A stretch of 64,000 nt of DNA. Source: Dissulfurimicrobium hydrothermale (GTDB lineage Bacteria > Desulfobacterota > Dissulfuribacteria > Dissulfuribacterales > Sh68). The stretch lies in NCBI RefSeq assembly GCF_022026155.1, contig NZ_CP085041.1:1582306-1646305 (forward strand), written 5' to 3'. The notes below the pieces were generated by a model. The model saw only the letters and a list, made by a program, of their open reading frames with translations, was not told the origin of the DNA and ran no database searches. The position numbers and the translations under genes are program-made. Positions within the stretch are counted from its first letter, which is position 1. Every line of letters starts with the position of its first letter. Shown here one piece after another: positions 3,153-45,110 of this stretch.

Positions 3153-4752
3153 TCATTGTCTTTCAGCCTGCGCCGATTGGATTTTGGCCGCCATAACCCT
3201 ATCGCGGCCGCCACTCTTTGACTCGTAAAGGGCGCTGTCGGCTGCTATCAAAAGGTTGTCTACGCTTGAACCGTGGACAGGACTCGAGGCGACCCCCCAT
3301 AGAGACGGTCAAGGAGAGGGTTTCATTGTGGTGTAAAATGCGCACCTGCTCCCTCACACCCCTACAAAGTCCGTTGGCTATGGTAACGGCATCCTCAAGG
3401 GAGCAATCTGGTAAGAGAATGACAAATTCCTCGCTGCCGTAACGGCAGATCACATCGCTCTTTCTGCACCTTTTTCTGAAAAAATCAGCGATCTCTCTCA
3501 ATGCCGCATCACCTACGTCGTGCCCATATATATCATTGAATCTCTTGAAATGGTCTATGTCGAGCATAATCAATGAAAAACTGGTATGGTTACGCCTAGC
3601 CCTGCTGATCTCTTTCTCTGCAAATTCCTTCATAAAGCGTCGATTAAAAGACCAGTCAGCGGGTCTGTCATCGATTGTTCCCTAAGCCAGTCCTGAAATT
3701 TAAGATTGGCCAAAGACAAACTCAAATAATCGGCGAAGATGGCCGCCGGCCCCATGATTGTTTCCAGACCAATACACCCATTATCGATGCTTAGTCGCGG
3801 TTGGATGTGCAACAGACCAAGGATTTTGCCCTGGGCTATGAGAGGGGTGCATAGATACACAAGATGCTCAAATGGTTGGATCTCGACATGGCCGCAAAAA
3901 GGCTTTATTGCTTTATTGCACACACTGTATGGTTTCCCGCGTTTTATCGCCCAACATTCCTCCTGATCGAATTCCATCTTGAGCCCTTCGGGTGAACCCC
4001 ATGAGACCACCTCCTTAAGCCGCCTCCATTCATTATCGAAAAGAAACACGCCACCTCTGCAATCCGGGAAAAGGATCTCTGCATACTTGGCGATAATAGA
4101 ATAAGATTCATGGGTACTATGGCATAGGTGGAGGAATTCCTCCATTTCATGCATGCGTGATTCCCACACGTTTCGTTGCCCCAACCTCTGCTCTTCCTTG
4201 CAAAACCCCTCGATAATAGTGGTCGTGGAGCCAGTATAGGCCTTGGCGTTCAATGACACACAGATGACGCTGCCATCGCACCGCCTTAAGACGGTCTTGA
4301 AATCTATTACCACGCCATTCTGAACAAGTTCTGTCTTAAGCCGCTCCAGTTCCGATGACTCCCAAAAAGGTGTGCCAACATCGGCGCTTTCCTGCAGAAG
4401 ATACCTCGGGCCCTCGTAACCCAGCATCCTGGCCATGGAGTGATTCACGCTTAAAAACCTACCATCAGGGCCCATGATGAATACCCCCCTCGAAACAATT
4501 ATCAAATATAAGCCTGACGATATCAGAGGTTCGTTCGGCCAAACGTTTTTCAAACTGCTCCTCCAAACAATGTACGTGTTGATCCAACCCTGAGAGCCTT
4601 TCCATAAGATTATTGAAGTAGCCGGCAATCTGGCCAATTTCATCTTGCCCGCCATTTTCGATCCTGATGGAATAATCACCATTTGCCGCCTGTTGAAGGG
4701 CATATATGAGATTTCGGATCTTCATCCCAAGAAATGGCAATATGACATTCAA
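3153..4752 (-). pseudogene. HAMP-PAS-GAF-GGDEF diguanylate cyclase, broken by three one-base indels
   Basis: Putting three frames together gives a protein of about 530 residues: a HAMP segment (NLIYALQQAANGDYSI), a PAS domain (FDNCFEG then IMGPDGRFLSVNHS), a GAF domain and a GGDEF domain with the signature written GSEEF and a normal start (SMTDPLTGL). An intact copy would make cyclic di-GMP. Frame breaks lie near 4485 (six Gs where five restore the frame), near 3640 (four Ts where five are needed, between DPLTGL and FNRRFMKEF) and near 3295 (six Gs where five are needed, inside SMGVASSP). With these repaired the frame ends at 3153-3155. No membrane segment precedes the HAMP domain; a stop codon stands directly before the TTG start, so the amino end may also be lost. 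Confidence 0.8.
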
Positions 4753-5338: not shown

Positions 5339-7162
5339 CTACCGATTCAAATATTTCAATATCTCTTGCGCCAGCTTGAAGGATACACCGCCAACCCTGG
5401 CGATCTCTTCTGCTTGGGCCTCTTTTATCCCCTTGACGCTTCCAAAATGCCTGAGAAGCCTCCGCTCTGTAACCGGCCCCACTCCATGGATATTGCTCAG
5501 CCTTGAGCGCAACCCGACATTGTCCCTTTTTTTTCTGTGGAATGTAATCCCGAACCTGTGAACTTCGTCCCTAACTCGCTGCAAAAAAAGTAAGACCGGG
5601 TGTGATCTCGGAAGGAACAAGGGCTCTGGCCAAAGAGGCCTGTATATCTTTTCGCCTTCACCATCCCTCTCTTTTGCAATCGATACAAACTCCAGCCGCT
5701 CGCCAAGACCAAGACTTGAGGCCGTCCGAACCGCCTCATTCAGCTGGCCTCGCCCGCCGTCTATCAACAGCAGATCAGGGAATTCGCCTGTCTCCAGCCC
5801 GGCCCTCATCCGTCTTTCAACCACCTCGTGGATCATAGCATAGTCATCCATCCCACCGACTGTATTTTTTATATTATAACGCCTATAACCCTTTTTATAA
5901 GATCTACCGTTTCTGAAGGCTACAAGACTCCCTATAGAAAGGTCCCCATCTGTTGTGGATATATCCACCCCCTCTACGAGGCTAGGCGTAACCTTAAGGG
6001 CAAGCGTAGTCTTTATCTCACACGAAAGCCTCTGCCACTCTAGGGCCTCTTCTTTGGCCCCGAGCAAGGCAAGGTCAGCGTTTTGCCTTGCCATATCCAA
6101 AAGCCTACCCCGTTCCCCTCGCACCCTGCCACTATTCAACCTCTTCAGGCCCATCTCGGACAGCCACTCAGACAAAACGGCAAGGTCGGAGGGTGGAGAC
6201 GGCACAAGAATCTCGGGTGGAACCTGATTCTCGCCGTAGTATTCGCGCAAAAAGGCCGACAATACGGCTCCGTCATCTTCCCCTTGGACGGAAACCAGGC
6301 AATGAAGTTCCTGACCGGTAACCACACCCTGCCTCACCCTGATGATGGAGGCAACCGCTCTTTCGTCACCCTTTGCGATGCCTATAGCGTCGAGGTCGGT
6401 ATCCATGCCGACCACAACCCACTGGCCCTCTGTAATCTGCTGAATGGCTCTTATTCTATCTCTGAGCGCAGCAGCCCTCTCAAACTCAAGCTTGGCTGCC
6501 GCCTCTTCCATCTGGGATGAAAGGGATTCAAGCAAAACGGATGTCTTTCCTTCAAAAAACAGCCTGACCCCTTTTATCCGTTCCCCATACTCGTCTCTTG
6601 ATACGGCATTGATGCAAGGGGCGCAGCAGCGTTTTATCTGATATTTGAGGCATGGTCTGGACCTCATCGCCATACGGGCGTCACTGCACGTCCTCAGCCC
6701 AAAAAGGGCCGTCACAAATCTATATGTCTCGCGCACAGCCAGACCTGACGGATACGGCCCGAAATAGAGAGCACCATCCCGCTCCCTTCGTCTTACTACG
6801 GATAATCTTGGGAAATCGTGTTGTATATTGAGCTTTAAAAAGGGATATGCCTTGTCGTCCCTCAGTAGGATGTTGTATATTGGTTTATATTGTTTGATGA
6901 GGGTAGCCTCCAAAAGAAGCGCCTCTTTTTCGGTCATTGTGGCGATAAACTCAAAGGCTGCGGCCTTTTTTAGCATTAAAGATGTCTTTTGAGGGATATC
7001 AACGGATGGTTTCAGGTATGAAGAAAGCCTCTGTCGGAGATCTTTTGCCTTGCCAACATAGAGCACATCTCCATTATCGTTTCTGAAGATGTAAACCCCG
7101 GACGATCTTGGAATACCCAAAAGGGATTCAGGGGAACACTTGAGGCGGATCGGGTGATTCAC
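5339..7162 (-). CDS. uvrC: UvrABC excinuclease subunit C
   Basis: Dual-incision nuclease of nucleotide excision repair, 607 residues, the usual length. The order of domains is complete: GIY-YIG endonuclease at the N-terminus (SSGVYIFRNDNGDVLYVGKA), a Cys-rich middle region, a UVR motif that binds UvrB (around EEAAAKLEFERAAALRDR), an RNase H-like domain that makes the 5' incision, and a C-terminal double helix-hairpin-helix (LSNIHGVGPVTERRLLRHFG). The start ATG overlaps the stop of speE by four bases, so the two genes are translationally coupled. Confidence 0.97.
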   Translation of the reverse strand: MNHPIRLKCSPESLLGIPRSSGVYIFRNDNGDVLYVGKAKDLRQRLSSYLKPSVDIPQKTSLMLKKAAAFEFIATMTEKEALLLEATLIKQYKPIYNILLRDDKAYPFLKLNIQHDFPRLSVVRRRERDGALYFGPYPSGLAVRETYRFVTALFGLRTCSDARMAMRSRPCLKYQIKRCCAPCINAVSRDEYGERIKGVRLFFEGKTSVLLESLSSQMEEAAAKLEFERAAALRDRIRAIQQITEGQWVVVGMDTDLDAIGIAKGDERAVASIIRVRQGVVTGQELHCLVSVQGEDDGAVLSAFLREYYGENQVPPEILVPSPPSDLAVLSEWLSEMGLKRLNSGRVRGERGRLLDMARQNADLALLGAKEEALEWQRLSCEIKTTLALKVTPSLVEGVDISTTDGDLSIGSLVAFRNGRSYKKGYRRYNIKNTVGGMDDYAMIHEVVERRMRAGLETGEFPDLLLIDGGRGQLNEAVRTASSLGLGERLEFVSIAKERDGEGEKIYRPLWPEPLFLPRSHPVLLFLQRVRDEVHRFGITFHRKKRDNVGLRSRLSNIHGVGPVTERRLLRHFGSVKGIKEAQAEEIARVGGVSFKLAQEILKYLNR

Positions 7163-8013
7163 CGGTTAACAGGCTGAAGGGCCTCCTTCATAAAGGCCGG
7201 GAGGGCAAACGATGCCCCGCATATCTCTTGAGTAAAGTATCTTGTGGAGATCTTGTGCACCTTGAACCTTTCCAGGTCGAAATCATTAAGTGGGTCATAT
7301 CTTTTACTGGCCATGACCCAACTCCACATGCCACTTGGATAGGTAGGGATAAAGCCGAGATAGAAATCAACAAACCGGAAACCAGCCTCACGAAGACCAC
7401 TGTTGATATCGGCAACGATTTTAATATCATAGAATGGAGACTCGCTCTGGGCCACCAGTATGCCATCCGATCGAAGGGCGGAAAGGCATTTTTTATAAAA
7501 ATCGGCATTGAAAAGGCCGACAGCCGGACCTATTGGGTCGGTTGAATCAACAATTATTATGTCGAAATCAGACTCATGATCCTCCAAATATTTTATCCCG
7601 TCGCCCACGACTATCGACACTCTGTCGTTTCCTTCGAGCTCACAGGCTATCGAAGGGAAAAACCTCTTGCATGTCTCTATCACAAGGCCGTCTATCTCGC
7701 AGAGGACCACCTTCTCAACATCTGTATGCTTTACGGTCTCCCTGACGGCCCCGCCGTCTCCGCCGCCTATTATCAAGACCTCTCTTGGGCTCGGATGGAG
7801 ATATAAGGAGGGGTGCGTTATCATTTCATGATAAATATATTCATCACGTTCAGTCGTCATGACAAGCCCATCAAGGAGCAAGACCCTGCCATATTCATAG
7901 GTATCCAGGACCTCGATTGTCTGATATTCGGATCTGCCGACAAATAATGTCTCTTTTACCTTAAGTTTGAGACCTGCATTTGGAGTGTGAAGTTCAGTGT
8001 ACCACAGTTCCAT
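7159..8013 (-). CDS. speE: Spermidine synthase (polyamine aminopropyltransferase)
   Basis: Transfers an aminopropyl group from decarboxylated S-adenosylmethionine to putrescine, giving spermidine. The 284-residue protein has the family landmarks: an N-terminal beta domain, the nucleotide-binding loop IIGGGDGGAVRE, and the catalytic DSTDP followed by GPAVGLFNADFY. It is first of a two-gene unit with uvrC, overlapping by ATGA. The enzyme needs decarboxylated SAM from a SpeD; the only SpeD-like gene in the window, at 44.5 kb, appears unable to make it, so a true SpeD should exist elsewhere in this genome. Confidence 0.95.
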   Translation of the reverse strand: MELWYTELHTPNAGLKLKVKETLFVGRSEYQTIEVLDTYEYGRVLLLDGLVMTTERDEYIYHEMITHPSLYLHPSPREVLIIGGGDGGAVRETVKHTDVEKVVLCEIDGLVIETCKRFFPSIACELEGNDRVSIVVGDGIKYLEDHESDFDIIIVDSTDPIGPAVGLFNADFYKKCLSALRSDGILVAQSESPFYDIKIVADINSGLREAGFRFVDFYLGFIPTYPSGMWSWVMASKRYDPLNDFDLERFKVHKISTRYFTQEICGASFALPAFMKEALQPVNR

Positions 8014-31223: not shown

Positions 31224-31323
31224 TCATATAATGACTTTTTATGAGACCATCAATTATATAATTGACGCAAATAATTTATATTTTATTATAAAACAATCGC
31301 ATCGAAAGGAAAAGGGCCATATC

Positions 31324-33753
31324 ATGGAAGCCGAATACTTGCCAGATATAAAACCTACATCCGAATATAAGAACGTCACTTTAGAAAATACCTTCGACTC
31401 TCTGAATTCATCAGAGAACGGGCTTACTGACAATGAAGCCACAAACAGACTCAATAAATTCGGCTATAACGAACTGGTTGAAAAAAAGAGAAACCTTCTT
31501 CTTGAATTTGTCCAGCGCTACTGGGGACCCATGCCCTGGCTCCTGGAACTGGCGATGGGGCTCTCTTTTATATTAAAACATTATCTCGAGGGAATAATAA
31601 TCTTTATACTGCTAACAATTAACGCAATTATCGGCCATATACATGCGCAAGGATCACAAAAGGCTATAGATCTCTTAAAGAAGAAATTAGCTATCAAGGC
31701 AAAAATATTGAGAAATGGAAAATGGATAGAAAAAGATGCAAGAGAACTCGTACCTGGCGATGTAATAGTCATAAAGCTTGGCGATATAATACCCGCTGAT
31801 GCAAAAATTATCGAAGGTGAGTTATCTGTAGACGAATCAGCCTTGACAGGCGAATCAATGCCAGTAAATGTACAGCTATCAGACATAATTTATTCAGGTT
31901 CTATAGTAAAACAGGGAGAAGCAAAATGTATTATAGTAAACACAGGGACAAATACATATTTTGGGAAAACAGCTAACTTGGTAAAAATTGCAAAACCAAA
32001 ATCACATCAACAACAAATAATGATGGCTATAGTCAAATATATGATGTATCTAGCTATAGTTATGTCGATGTTGATTTTTATATATGCATTGAGCACAAAT
32101 ATAGGGATACTTACTATACTTACATTTGCAGTTATATTTCTTATGGGAGCAATTCCTGTAGCTCTGCCTGCAGTACTTACCATAGTGCAAGCTATTGGTG
32201 CAATGGAACTTGTCAAAAAGGGAGTGTTAGTAACTAGACTAGATTCAATAGAAGATGCAGCATCTATAGATGTATTATGTCTAGACAAGACAGGAACAAT
32301 AACTCAGAACAAGTTATCGATTACAGATTATATAACATTCCAACAATACAATAAAGAAGATGTAATACTAATGGCAAGTCTTGCTTCCAAAGAAGAGGGA
32401 ATGGACATAATAGATCTTGCGATTATTAATTATGCCAAATCAATTGGAATAAATTTTACTGCCTACAAACAGCTATCTTATACGCCATTTAATCCATCAA
32501 TTAAGAGAACAGAGGCAATTATTGAAATAAACAAAAAGAGATTTAAAGTAGTTAAAGGTGCAGCACAGATCATTATATCACTATGCCAACCAATGGATAA
32601 AGATGTTATTGATAAGGCAAATAAGATAATAGAAAATTTTTAACAGAAAGGCTATAGGACTATAGCCGTAGCTAAATCAGAAGAAGATTCAGATAATCTT
32701 AAGCTTATAGGTTTACTAGCGCTTTCCGATCCTCCGAGATCTGATTCAAAAGCCATGATAGATGCGGCAAGAAAACATGGCATAAAGCCAATTATGCTTA
32801 CAGGTGACAATATTGCCATAGCGAAACAGATAGCAACTGAGGTAGGTATTGGCAACAAAATTATCCATATGGCAGATATTAAGGATCTAAATGAAGATGA
32901 ACAGGTGAAGATAGTTGAAGAAAGCGATGGCATTGCCGAAATATATCCTGAGGATAAATACATGATAGTAAAGCTTTTGCAATCCAGAGGACATATGGTG
33001 GGCATGACAGGAGATGGTGTTAACGATGCACCTGCTTTAAAACAGGCAGAAATGGGTATAGCAGTACATAATGCCACAGATGTAGCAAAGGCTTCTGCAA
33101 GCGTAGTATTAACACAACCAGGTATAAATGTAATAATTGATGCCATCAATATAAGCAGACAAACATATCAACGGATGCTTTCGTGGGTTCTAAATAAGGT
33201 TACAAAGGTTATAGAATTTGTTGGATTGCTTACAGTATGTTTCATATGGCTGAATAAGATTGTGCTCTCCCTTCTTGGCATGTCACTACTTGTATTCGCA
33301 AATGATTTTGTAACCATGTCGCTGGCTACTGATAATGTAAAACATACAAGCAATCCAAACAGCTGGAACATAAAACATATTACTTTAGCCTCGCTTATCC
33401 CAGGCATACTATTAGTTATTGAAGGCGTCATAGTAGTCTATATCGGATTAAAATATTTTCATCTTGATTGGGATAGACTTCGTACAGCAGTAATGCTTAA
33501 TCTAGTATTCAATAGTCAGTTCAGGGTATTGATAATGAGAGAAAGAAGACACTTCTGGTCATCTTTTCCAAGTATAGAACTATTCCTATCCAGCATCTTA
33601 ACAATAATTGGATTTGCCTTGCTTGGCTTCTATGGAATAATCGTCCACCCTATCAGCATAGATCAGATTATAATTATCTTTGGATTTTCTGCTATCTTTA
33701 CGCTTATTATAGACTTTCCAAAATACTATATGTTCAAAAAATTTGAACTCTAA
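31324..33753 (+). pseudogene. P3A-type plasma-membrane H+-ATPase with an in-frame stop
   Basis: One frame runs through 810 codons with a single TAA at 32641-32643 (codon 440), between ANKIIENF and KGYRTIAVAKS, where homologues read straight on. The motifs are intact: VDESALTGESMPV, the phosphorylation site CLDKTGTITQNKL, TGDGVNDAPALKQAEMGIAV, and a C-terminal membrane half ending FPKYYMFKKF. This matches proton pumps of the PMA1 type found in fungi, plants, acidophilic archaea and some bacteria. Base composition and codon use are clearly more AT-rich than the neighbours, which points to transfer. ATG 31324 is preferred over the ATG at 31231 because AAAGGA lies upstream. Either the stop is a fresh inactivation or the two halves are made separately. 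Confidence 0.78.
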
Positions 33754-44280: not shown

Positions 44281-44357
44281 CGGGACGTAGCGCAGCCTGG
44301 TAGCGCACCTGAATGGGGTTCAGGGAGTCGGAGGTTCAAATCCTCTCGTCCCGACCA
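44281..44357 (+). tRNA. tRNA-Pro(GGG)
   Basis: Acceptor CGGGACG pairs with CGTCCCG, anticodon loop ATGGGGT gives GGG, T loop TTCAAAT, CCA encoded. Length 77. Confidence 0.96.
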
Positions 44358-44440: not shown

Positions 44441-44478
44441 GCATGTCTAAATTGTTGATTGTTAAGGAGGGCAAGGCC

Positions 44479-44940
44479 ATGACATTTAATCTCGCCGCTG
44501 CAAATGACAACGGATTGAATCAGAAACAGCCTGGGCATGAACTGGCAAGGCAACGGATGGGCGCTGTGATGGACACCCATCTTCTGGCCGAGATATGGCA
44601 ATCTCCATTTGCTACACTGGCCGACGCCAAGGTCATAGAAAAAGCGCTCAATCTTCTCGGCAAGGACGCTACCGGCATAGACGGCCAGGATTCATACATA
44701 TTCGAGGTAATAGTGCACCAATTTAGCCCATACGGCGTATCAGGCACGGCCAAGATGCCCGATGCGCATGTAATCATCCACACATGGCCTGAAAACAAAT
44801 ATGCAGCGGTCGATATCTATGCAAGCGACCGCGAAAAGGCATATATGGTGCTGGAGGGCATCAAAAACGGACTTGAAGCTGGATATGTACAGGTTACAGA
44901 ACTACGTCGCGGCGAACTCCTCGACATCGAAGACACCTGA
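44479..44940 (+). CDS. SpeD-family protein lacking the pyruvoyl-forming serine
   Basis: Clear relative of bacterial class 1b S-adenosylmethionine decarboxylase: FSPYGVSG, IHTWPENKYAAVDIY and the C-terminal helix and strand pattern are all in place (153 residues). In active enzymes the proenzyme cuts itself at Glu-Ser in SESH and the Ser becomes the pyruvoyl cofactor. Here the same position reads DAH (Asp95-Ala96-His97), so no cofactor can form by that route. The catalytic Cys of FTCG is also replaced (YASD, Ser116), while the His of IHTWPE is kept. ATG 44479 is chosen because AAGGAGG stands eight bases upstream; it carries about 25 more residues than Thermotoga SpeD at the N-terminus. Function unknown: a regulatory partner of a true SpeD or a new role. 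Confidence 0.82.
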   Translation: MTFNLAAANDNGLNQKQPGHELARQRMGAVMDTHLLAEIWQSPFATLADAKVIEKALNLLGKDATGIDGQDSYIFEVIVHQFSPYGVSGTAKMPDAHVIIHTWPENKYAAVDIYASDREKAYMVLEGIKNGLEAGYVQVTELRRGELLDIEDT

Positions 44941-45110
44941 CTGGACGGCCAGGCCAGGGAGATGACCTGGCTTAATATTATGATCAATGCAAATTTGTCA
45001 TTCCTGGCAGCCTAATTGGGGATTTCATTGAAGCTACAACGCAGTGGCATTATCGTTAATATTTAAACAATAGCTAAAACCGCCACTCCCAAAGCCGCCG
45101 TGACAATTTC

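Follow-up and report, generated by a model that had tools for sequence, protein, structure and literature searches.

A SpeD homologue without processing serine or catalytic cysteine: a candidate subunit of a two-gene AdoMet decarboxylase in Dissulfurimicrobium hydrothermale and its relatives

Introduction

What can a homologue of AdoMet decarboxylase (AdoMetDC) contribute to a cell once the serine that yields the pyruvoyl cofactor has gone? The question is raised by a gene of Dissulfurimicrobium hydrothermale Sh68, a thermophilic sulfur disproportionator (PMC8780430). The gene lies in a stretch of 64,000 nucleotides, here termed the window (contig NZ_CP085041.1, positions 1,582,306 to 1,646,305), of a genome that forms a single contig of 2,025,450 bases (G000). 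An earlier note, made from the sequence of the window alone, described the product as a SpeD homologue lacking both the self-cleavage serine and the catalytic cysteine, and suggested a counterpart of the trypanosome prozyme or an AdoMet-binding regulator. We refer to gene and product as dead speD and dead SpeD.

AdoMetDC is built from two similar halves, the pyruvoyl-forming serine and the cysteine being placed in one, the histidine and the ribose-binding glutamate in the other. The bacterial enzyme, a sandwich of two identical chains, carries the union of both halves, and in the eukaryotic enzyme the C-terminal half is altered and no longer cleaves (PMC1282579). The AdoMet contacts of human AdoMetDC include Phe223 and Glu247, both from the C-terminal half (PMC3686867). 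Dead AdoMetDC units are already known from trypanosomes, from animal spermine synthase and from bacterial SpeD fusions.

Sequence and predicted structure

The SpeD homology claimed by the earlier note is secure. Dead SpeD matches PF02675 (AdoMet_dc) over model positions 1-107 of 107 with an E-value of 2.1e-22 and 79.9 bits, against a curated cut-off of 25, and constitutes one 153-residue domain rather than two SpeD domains in one chain. The score against the NCBIfam adenosylmethionine decarboxylase equivalog TIGR03330, 72.5 bits, falls slightly below the cut-off of 75.65. Features of the locus are given in Table 1, with the self-cleavage site and the catalytic cysteine in T. maritima numbering. 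Alignment places Phe82, Ser88, His101, Trp103, Pro104 and Glu105 on F49, S55, H68, W70, P71 and E72 of T. maritima SpeD. A bona fide class 1b SpeD would have all six of these together with Ser63 and Cys83; in dead SpeD the six are present, whilst Ala96 and Ser116 occupy the other two positions. Judged from its sequence the protein is unable to form a pyruvoyl group of its own, and the earlier note was right that decarboxylation by the known route is closed to it when alone.

Table 1. Coordinates of features in the window.
Feature	Position	Strand	Remark
speE	7159..8013	-	sole strong spermidine synthase match of the genome (TIGR00417, NF002010), 36 kb from dead speD
PAS/GAF/GGDEF protein	3199-4703	-	split across two frames at the start of the GGDEF domain
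P-type cation ATPase	31231-33753	+	split across two reading frames; possibly frameshift or pseudogene
tRNA-Pro(GGG)	44281..44357	+	upstream neighbour conserved in both classes, 48/65 loci
Shine-Dalgarno sequence	44464..44470	+	AAGGAGG, 8 nt 5' of ATG
dead speD	44479..44940	+	AdoMet_dc-fold protein, 153 aa, without processing Ser or catalytic Cys
Codons 82-105	44722..44793	+	F82, S88, H101, W103, P104, E105; invariant, 65/65 homologues
Codons D95-A96-H97	44761..44769	+	replace E62-S63-H64, self-cleavage site
Codon S116	44824..44826	+	replaces catalytic C83
Vestige of ancestral speE overlap	44929..44946	+	GAAGACACCTGACTGG

The best sequence match in the PDB is 1tmi, an engineered S63A mutant that does not process. 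An AlphaFold2 model calculated with 26 orthologues is confident in the core, with pLDDT of 92-97 in most core blocks, and of low confidence in the first 28 residues. The top Foldseek matches of the model are the T. maritima and A. aeolicus SpeD, followed by human spermine synthase and eukaryotic AdoMetDC; the comparison with T. maritima SpeD (1TLU/1VR7) gives an E-value of 1.6e-10 and a TM score of 0.78 by target. The strong ribosome binding site reported previously is present, and an AGGAGG-type sequence precedes most of the orthologues. Elsewhere in the window two genes are split between reading frames (Table 1).

Distribution, conservation and selection

Is the loss peculiar to D. hydrothermale? 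Among 60 related genomes 27 orthologues were identified, all in the order of the window, and serine and cysteine are absent from all 27, which rules out a recent point mutation or a sequencing error. A scan of named genomes then placed dead SpeD in the Thermodesulfatator/Thermosulfurimonas group also, and members were found in 37 of the 41 genomes searched in the class Thermodesulfobacteria. The earlier note had proposed a homologue search and a tree for the variant; these gave 65 distinct proteins, from the order of the window and the Thermodesulfobacteria, and the members tested form one fully supported branch, separate from both canonical SpeD and the live paralogue (113 columns, with the inner branching order unsure). 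A family profile run against 395 genomes of the phylum gave scores that fall into two sets, with none between 134 and 98 bits; the higher-scoring set is restricted to the order of the window and to families f39, f72 and f97, which are taken to be Thermodesulfobacteria as they match in contig coordinates.

The note had also considered that homologues retaining the serine would point to a recent mutation. Such proteins exist, seven among the 37 from Thermodesulfobacteria and none in the order of the window, and all seven lack the cysteine, as does every one of the 37. The residue preceding the serine in these seven varies (D, E, S, C or K), so position 63 looks free rather than catalytic.

Two sets of active-site positions behave very differently in the dead clade. 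In the set that we call trans (F49, S55, H68, W70 and E72) all 325 of 325 cells are invariant, and H7, E11, P51, G53, T69, P71, A77 and D79 are likewise kept in all 65 proteins. The cis set of E62, S63 and C83 has drifted, with 10 of 195 cells retained (E62 in three proteins, S63 in seven and C83 in none). Over both classes 21 of 111 core columns are invariant. For 33 pairs with dS below 2 the dN/dS ratio is 0.03-0.23, with a median of 0.11, compared to 0.06 for the live paralogue, far from the value near one that the earlier note named as evidence against its view of an intact gene. Dead SpeD is a maintained protein under purifying selection, and a decaying gene is ruled out by the ratio together with the invariant residues.

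The locus

The ancestral gene order is tRNA-Pro(GGG), dead speD, speE. The tRNA gene is directly 5' of dead speD in 48 of the 65 loci and a shared transcript is possible. On the other side speE follows directly in 59 of the 65 loci; its ancestral start is a TTG overlapping the dead speD stop codon TGA (TTGA), and its Shine-Dalgarno sequence, GAGG and similar, sits inside the last codons of dead speD. Relatives with speE carry GAGGACACTTGACTGG where the window has the vestige listed in Table 1, the TTG being the speE start. In D. hydrothermale the linked gene has been lost, and the speE 36 kb away, at the distance first reported, is a different one.

Such loss has occurred in six loci (the window, L032, L037, L049, L054 and L055), in all of which dead SpeD is kept. 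The Shine-Dalgarno sequence there has changed to GAAG or AAAG and the protein still ends in EDT, or KDT in one case. As the tail residues were mostly spared while the ribosome binding site eroded and speE disappeared, dead SpeD is selected for itself and not just as a leader. We also considered whether the EDT conserved at the C-terminus is a functional peptide; its conservation is largely explained by the speE Shine-Dalgarno sequence and overlapping start, despite which the residues persist in the six loci without speE (with E changed to K in one).

These observations bear on two other explanations. The first is that the gene is what remains of an old speD, either in slow decay or kept only to lead translation into speE, with the paralogue alone making decarboxylated AdoMet. 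The arrangement of the TTGA overlap and the GAGG-type sequence in the 3' end does suggest translational coupling, but the median dN/dS, the invariant core columns and the retention of dead SpeD after the loss of speE have already largely refuted this reading, which we regard as very improbable.

The second is that dead SpeD is a structural partner of SpeE, a two-gene counterpart of the N-terminal domain that animal spermine synthase needs for dimerisation. That domain has lost AdoMetDC function yet is essential for activity (PMC12803844), human spermine synthase (3c6k, E-value 2e-5) is among the structural matches of our model, and the overlapping order with speE is seen in 59 of the 65 loci. 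However, dead SpeD survives in the six loci without an overlapping speE and in one genome (G011) without any SpeE match, and the animal domain keeps its fold but not its sequence (PMC12803844), whereas the active-site residues of dead SpeD, for which a structural partner has no need, are invariant. A purely structural role is accordingly judged improbable.

The live paralogue and the polyamine pathway

The only other SpeD homologue in D. hydrothermale (L001) is at genome position 1,946,770, adjoining speB, and keeps E62, S63, H64 and C83. The earlier note asked whether carriers of the variant always have a second, canonical SpeD. A serine- and cysteine-intact second SpeD is nearly always there, in 26 of 28 carriers in the order, 34 of 37 in the Thermodesulfobacteria and all eight single-chromosome genomes with the dead gene, but it is not plainly canonical and has the look of an arginine decarboxylase. 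The 64 proteins of this partner type retain the cis set in 192/192 cells and the trans set in 170/320, the reverse of the dead clade; all 64 have E11 replaced by Asp, F49 by Tyr and W70 by Phe or Tyr. With one exception (L062) speB lies 3' of the partner gene wherever the contig reaches. In the tree the partner groups with L164_6450, which is the second SpeD in a genome of the Vampirovibrionales; the SpeD pair of Vampirovibrio chlorellavorus has been shown to consist of an AdoMetDC and an arginine decarboxylase (PMC10407285). By resemblance of sequence the partner is probably of the arginine decarboxylase type, with a link to the V. chlorellavorus enzyme. Given the speB neighbour and the grouping with L164_6450 we did not take it at face value as an ordinary AdoMetDC, yet a purely arginine decarboxylase is also counter-indicated, since P71 and Glu or Asp at position 72 are kept and the AdoMetDC cut-off is passed (88.7 against 75.65 bits).

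What else in the genome might supply the pathway? Decarboxylated AdoMet is required by the SpeE of D. hydrothermale, and agmatine by its SpeB. A single PF02784 protein is LysA, encoded between argH and dapF; profile searches of the genome returned no PF01276 and no PF01862 match, whereas the lack of PF01536 matches, shared by the controls, carries no weight. No arginine decarboxylase (ADC), ornithine decarboxylase (ODC) or AdoMetDC other than the two SpeD homologues was found in this genome, so that decarboxylation of both arginine or ornithine and AdoMet falls to the two SpeD genes. The argument is weaker in the Thermodesulfobacteria, since in approximately half of the genomes PF02784 matches two proteins, the second mostly about 455 residues long, and the PF01862 search covered other genomes; three genomes of the class encode an additional SpeD homologue whose type is uncertain (L230, L252 and L253). 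That decarboxylated AdoMet is made in the class is indicated by Thermodesulfobacterium thermophilum, which belongs with the Thermodesulfatator members and accumulates spermine/thermospermine, with two working aminopropyltransferases (PMC11107197).

Within the order 26 of the 28 genomes carrying dead speD, and 5 of the 18 that do not, have a strong SpeE match (Fisher p 6e-6, a value that rests on related rather than independent genomes). Two of these five have an ordinary intact SpeD, and in the other three, incomplete drafts, the partner alone was found. Mutual exclusion of the dead gene and a canonical SpeD in the order rests on two genomes (p 0.15) and is only suggestive. One genome of 97% completeness, G011, encodes both dead SpeD and the partner but gave no SpeE or BpsA match.

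These data could also be read as a prozyme-like activator or an AdoMet sensor, the partner then being an AdoMetDC complete in itself, or a decarboxylase of both arginine and AdoMet. Dead SpeD would bind AdoMet in its own pocket and either tune the partner allosterically or act as an AdoMet-responsive regulator elsewhere. Consistent with this, every AdoMet-contact position of the trans half is invariant, and the partner passes the equivalog cut-off and keeps the proline that we take as the residue diagnostic of AdoMetDC as opposed to ADC in PMC10407285; the trypanosome prozyme provides a precedent (PMC5201418). But S55 and H68, which serve processing and catalysis beside the pyruvoyl group and are unnecessary for binding alone, are invariant in all 65 proteins, the prozyme itself lost its ligand-binding residues and so does not predict such a pattern, and arginine or ornithine would need a decarboxylase of its own, of which D. 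hydrothermale yielded none. We consider an activator or sensor rather unlikely.

A possible composite active site

The residue pattern, the single clade, purifying selection, operon logic, co-occurrence and the lack of other candidate decarboxylases lead us to a different proposal, namely that dead SpeD is the non-cleaving subunit of a two-gene AdoMetDC, the active site of which would be completed by the paralogue. We put the probability of this at a little under one half. In the bacterial homodimer each active site draws on both chains, one giving the pyruvoyl group (Ser63) and Cys83, the other F49, S55, H68 and E72, and it is just this latter set that dead SpeD keeps. A non-cleaving half of a composite site should have lost the serine and cysteine and preserved the Phe, Ser, His and Glu that act in trans, which is what is found. 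The speB-adjacent SpeD homologue would be the partner and the source of the Ser63 pyruvoyl group and Cys83. In the putative heterodimer AdoMet would be bound by the dead chain, its adenine and ribose lying against F49, W70 and E72, and S55 and H68 of that chain would aid processing of the partner, the pyruvoyl group of which would decarboxylate the bound AdoMet to feed SpeE. A homodimer of the partner would be an arginine decarboxylase feeding SpeB. Heterodimerisation, AdoMet binding and both decarboxylase activities are what we infer from the patterns described.

Several observations favour the composite site. The trans set is invariant and the cis set drifts in the dead clade, with the reverse in the partner, and this division agrees with the two halves of eukaryotic AdoMetDC: Phe223 and Glu247 of the human enzyme align with F49 and E72, and human Ser229 and His243 presumably with S55 and H68. 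Dead speD occupies the slot usual for an AdoMetDC gene, ahead of an overlapping speE; speB lies 3' of the partner, SpeE co-occurs with the dead gene, and dead SpeD has outlived six losses of the overlapping speE. That a sensor has no need of S55 and H68, nor a structural partner of SpeE of any of the set, favours the composite site over both.

Other observations count against it. The partner keeps its own S55, H68, P71 and Glu or Asp72 and passes the AdoMetDC cut-off, and thus may act unaided. Tyrosine at position 49 is tolerated in T. brucei AdoMetDC (Y243), so the partner, with the same substitution, may decarboxylate AdoMet alone. In the Vampirovibrionales genome L164 an arginine-decarboxylase-like paralogue stands beside an intact SpeD, which argues that a dead partner is dispensable in principle, and in G011 dead SpeD and the partner occur with no SpeE or BpsA match.

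An extended form of the proposal, a decarboxylase with subunit exchange in which one pyruvoyl protein acts as a homodimer on arginine for SpeB and with dead SpeD on AdoMet for SpeE, is possible but doubtful.

Comparison with known systems

Dead SpeD resembles the class 1b SpeD (T. maritima 1TLU, 3IWC) in fold, in substrate-contact residues and in its slot beside speE, and differs in having Ala96 and Ser116 for the processing serine and catalytic cysteine, the cysteine being absent clade-wide. In common with the C-terminal half of eukaryotic class 2 AdoMetDC (PMC1282579) it has lost Ser and Cys and kept Phe, Ser, His and Glu; that half is covalently part of one chain, whereas dead SpeD would be a separate subunit if our model holds.

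The prozyme analogy of the earlier note stands insofar as the trypanosomatid prozyme is also a dead AdoMetDC paralogue beside a live one in the same genome (PMC5201418). A strict prozyme is unlikely. The prozyme has lost ligand-binding residues and works by dimer-interface allostery in a class 2 fold (PMC5201418, PMC3686867), whereas dead SpeD, of class 1b fold, shows no such loss, its ligand-binding residues being invariant and S55 and H68 kept. The N-terminal domain of animal spermine synthase (PMC12803844) is likewise a dead AdoMetDC-fold unit tied to an aminopropyltransferase, but its sequence is unconserved, and dead SpeD is a separate protein with conserved active-site residues.

The note regarded a bacterial counterpart of the prozyme, or an AdoMet-binding regulator, as new. 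Dead SpeD domains as such are known from bacteria, at the C-terminus of the SpeD1-SpeD2 fusions of Victivallis vadensis and Desulfobacter latus (PMC10407285). There too a bacterial SpeD domain without cleavage residues accompanies a live one, but in a single polypeptide, with the dead domain inferred to be a former ODC (PMC10407285); dead SpeD is encoded by a gene of its own, which is linked to speE but not to the live paralogue. No free-standing bacterial dead SpeD with such deep conservation and a tie to speE was found in the literature outside subscription journals. SpeDA arginine decarboxylases (PMC10407285) similarly involve a SpeD homologue paired with a second one, and the partner resembles SpeDA. 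These enzymes keep Ser63, His68 and Cys83, of which dead SpeD keeps His68 only, and it belongs with neither SpeDA nor SpeDC. SpeD homologues resembling the Gln/Thr/Phe/Tyr pattern described for SpeDC ornithine decarboxylases were seen in two genomes (L046 and L056).

Other variants were encountered. In genome G072 a SpeD (L118:4979-6333) keeps ESH, has lost Cys83 and overlaps a gene for the branched-chain polyamine synthase BpsA; the genome also has a partner-type SpeD beside speB (L181). The tree gives this protein no supported grouping with the dead clade, and its lineage hints at a third case pointing the same way. In both of two neighbouring genes of a Planctomycetaceae MAG (L153:3917-4852 and 5944-6924) an AdoMet_dc domain is joined to a SET domain; the second of them lacks Cys83 and has GSR in place of ESH. 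An AdoMet_dc protein of genome G050 (L051:2711-3307) with a signal-peptide- or lipoprotein-like start has neither Ser63 (EGH) nor His68 (IATWPE).

Concluding remarks

In most of the organisms checked in both classes no other AdoMetDC can be recognised, and at least one species of the Thermodesulfobacteria produces spermine/thermospermine, so that on paper a step of polyamine synthesis goes to a gene incapable of doing it alone. The genes of the dead clade should not be named speD by homology. If the composite site is true, the division of labour that has been proposed to underlie the origin of eukaryotic AdoMetDC would have a present-day case in two separate genes, and with it a pseudoenzyme that changes the substrate of its live paralogue. 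Should subunit exchange also be true, the choice of partner would set the substrate and with it the balance of putrescine and spermidine, and the pair would be a natural two-gene counterpart of the two specialised halves of the eukaryotic enzyme.
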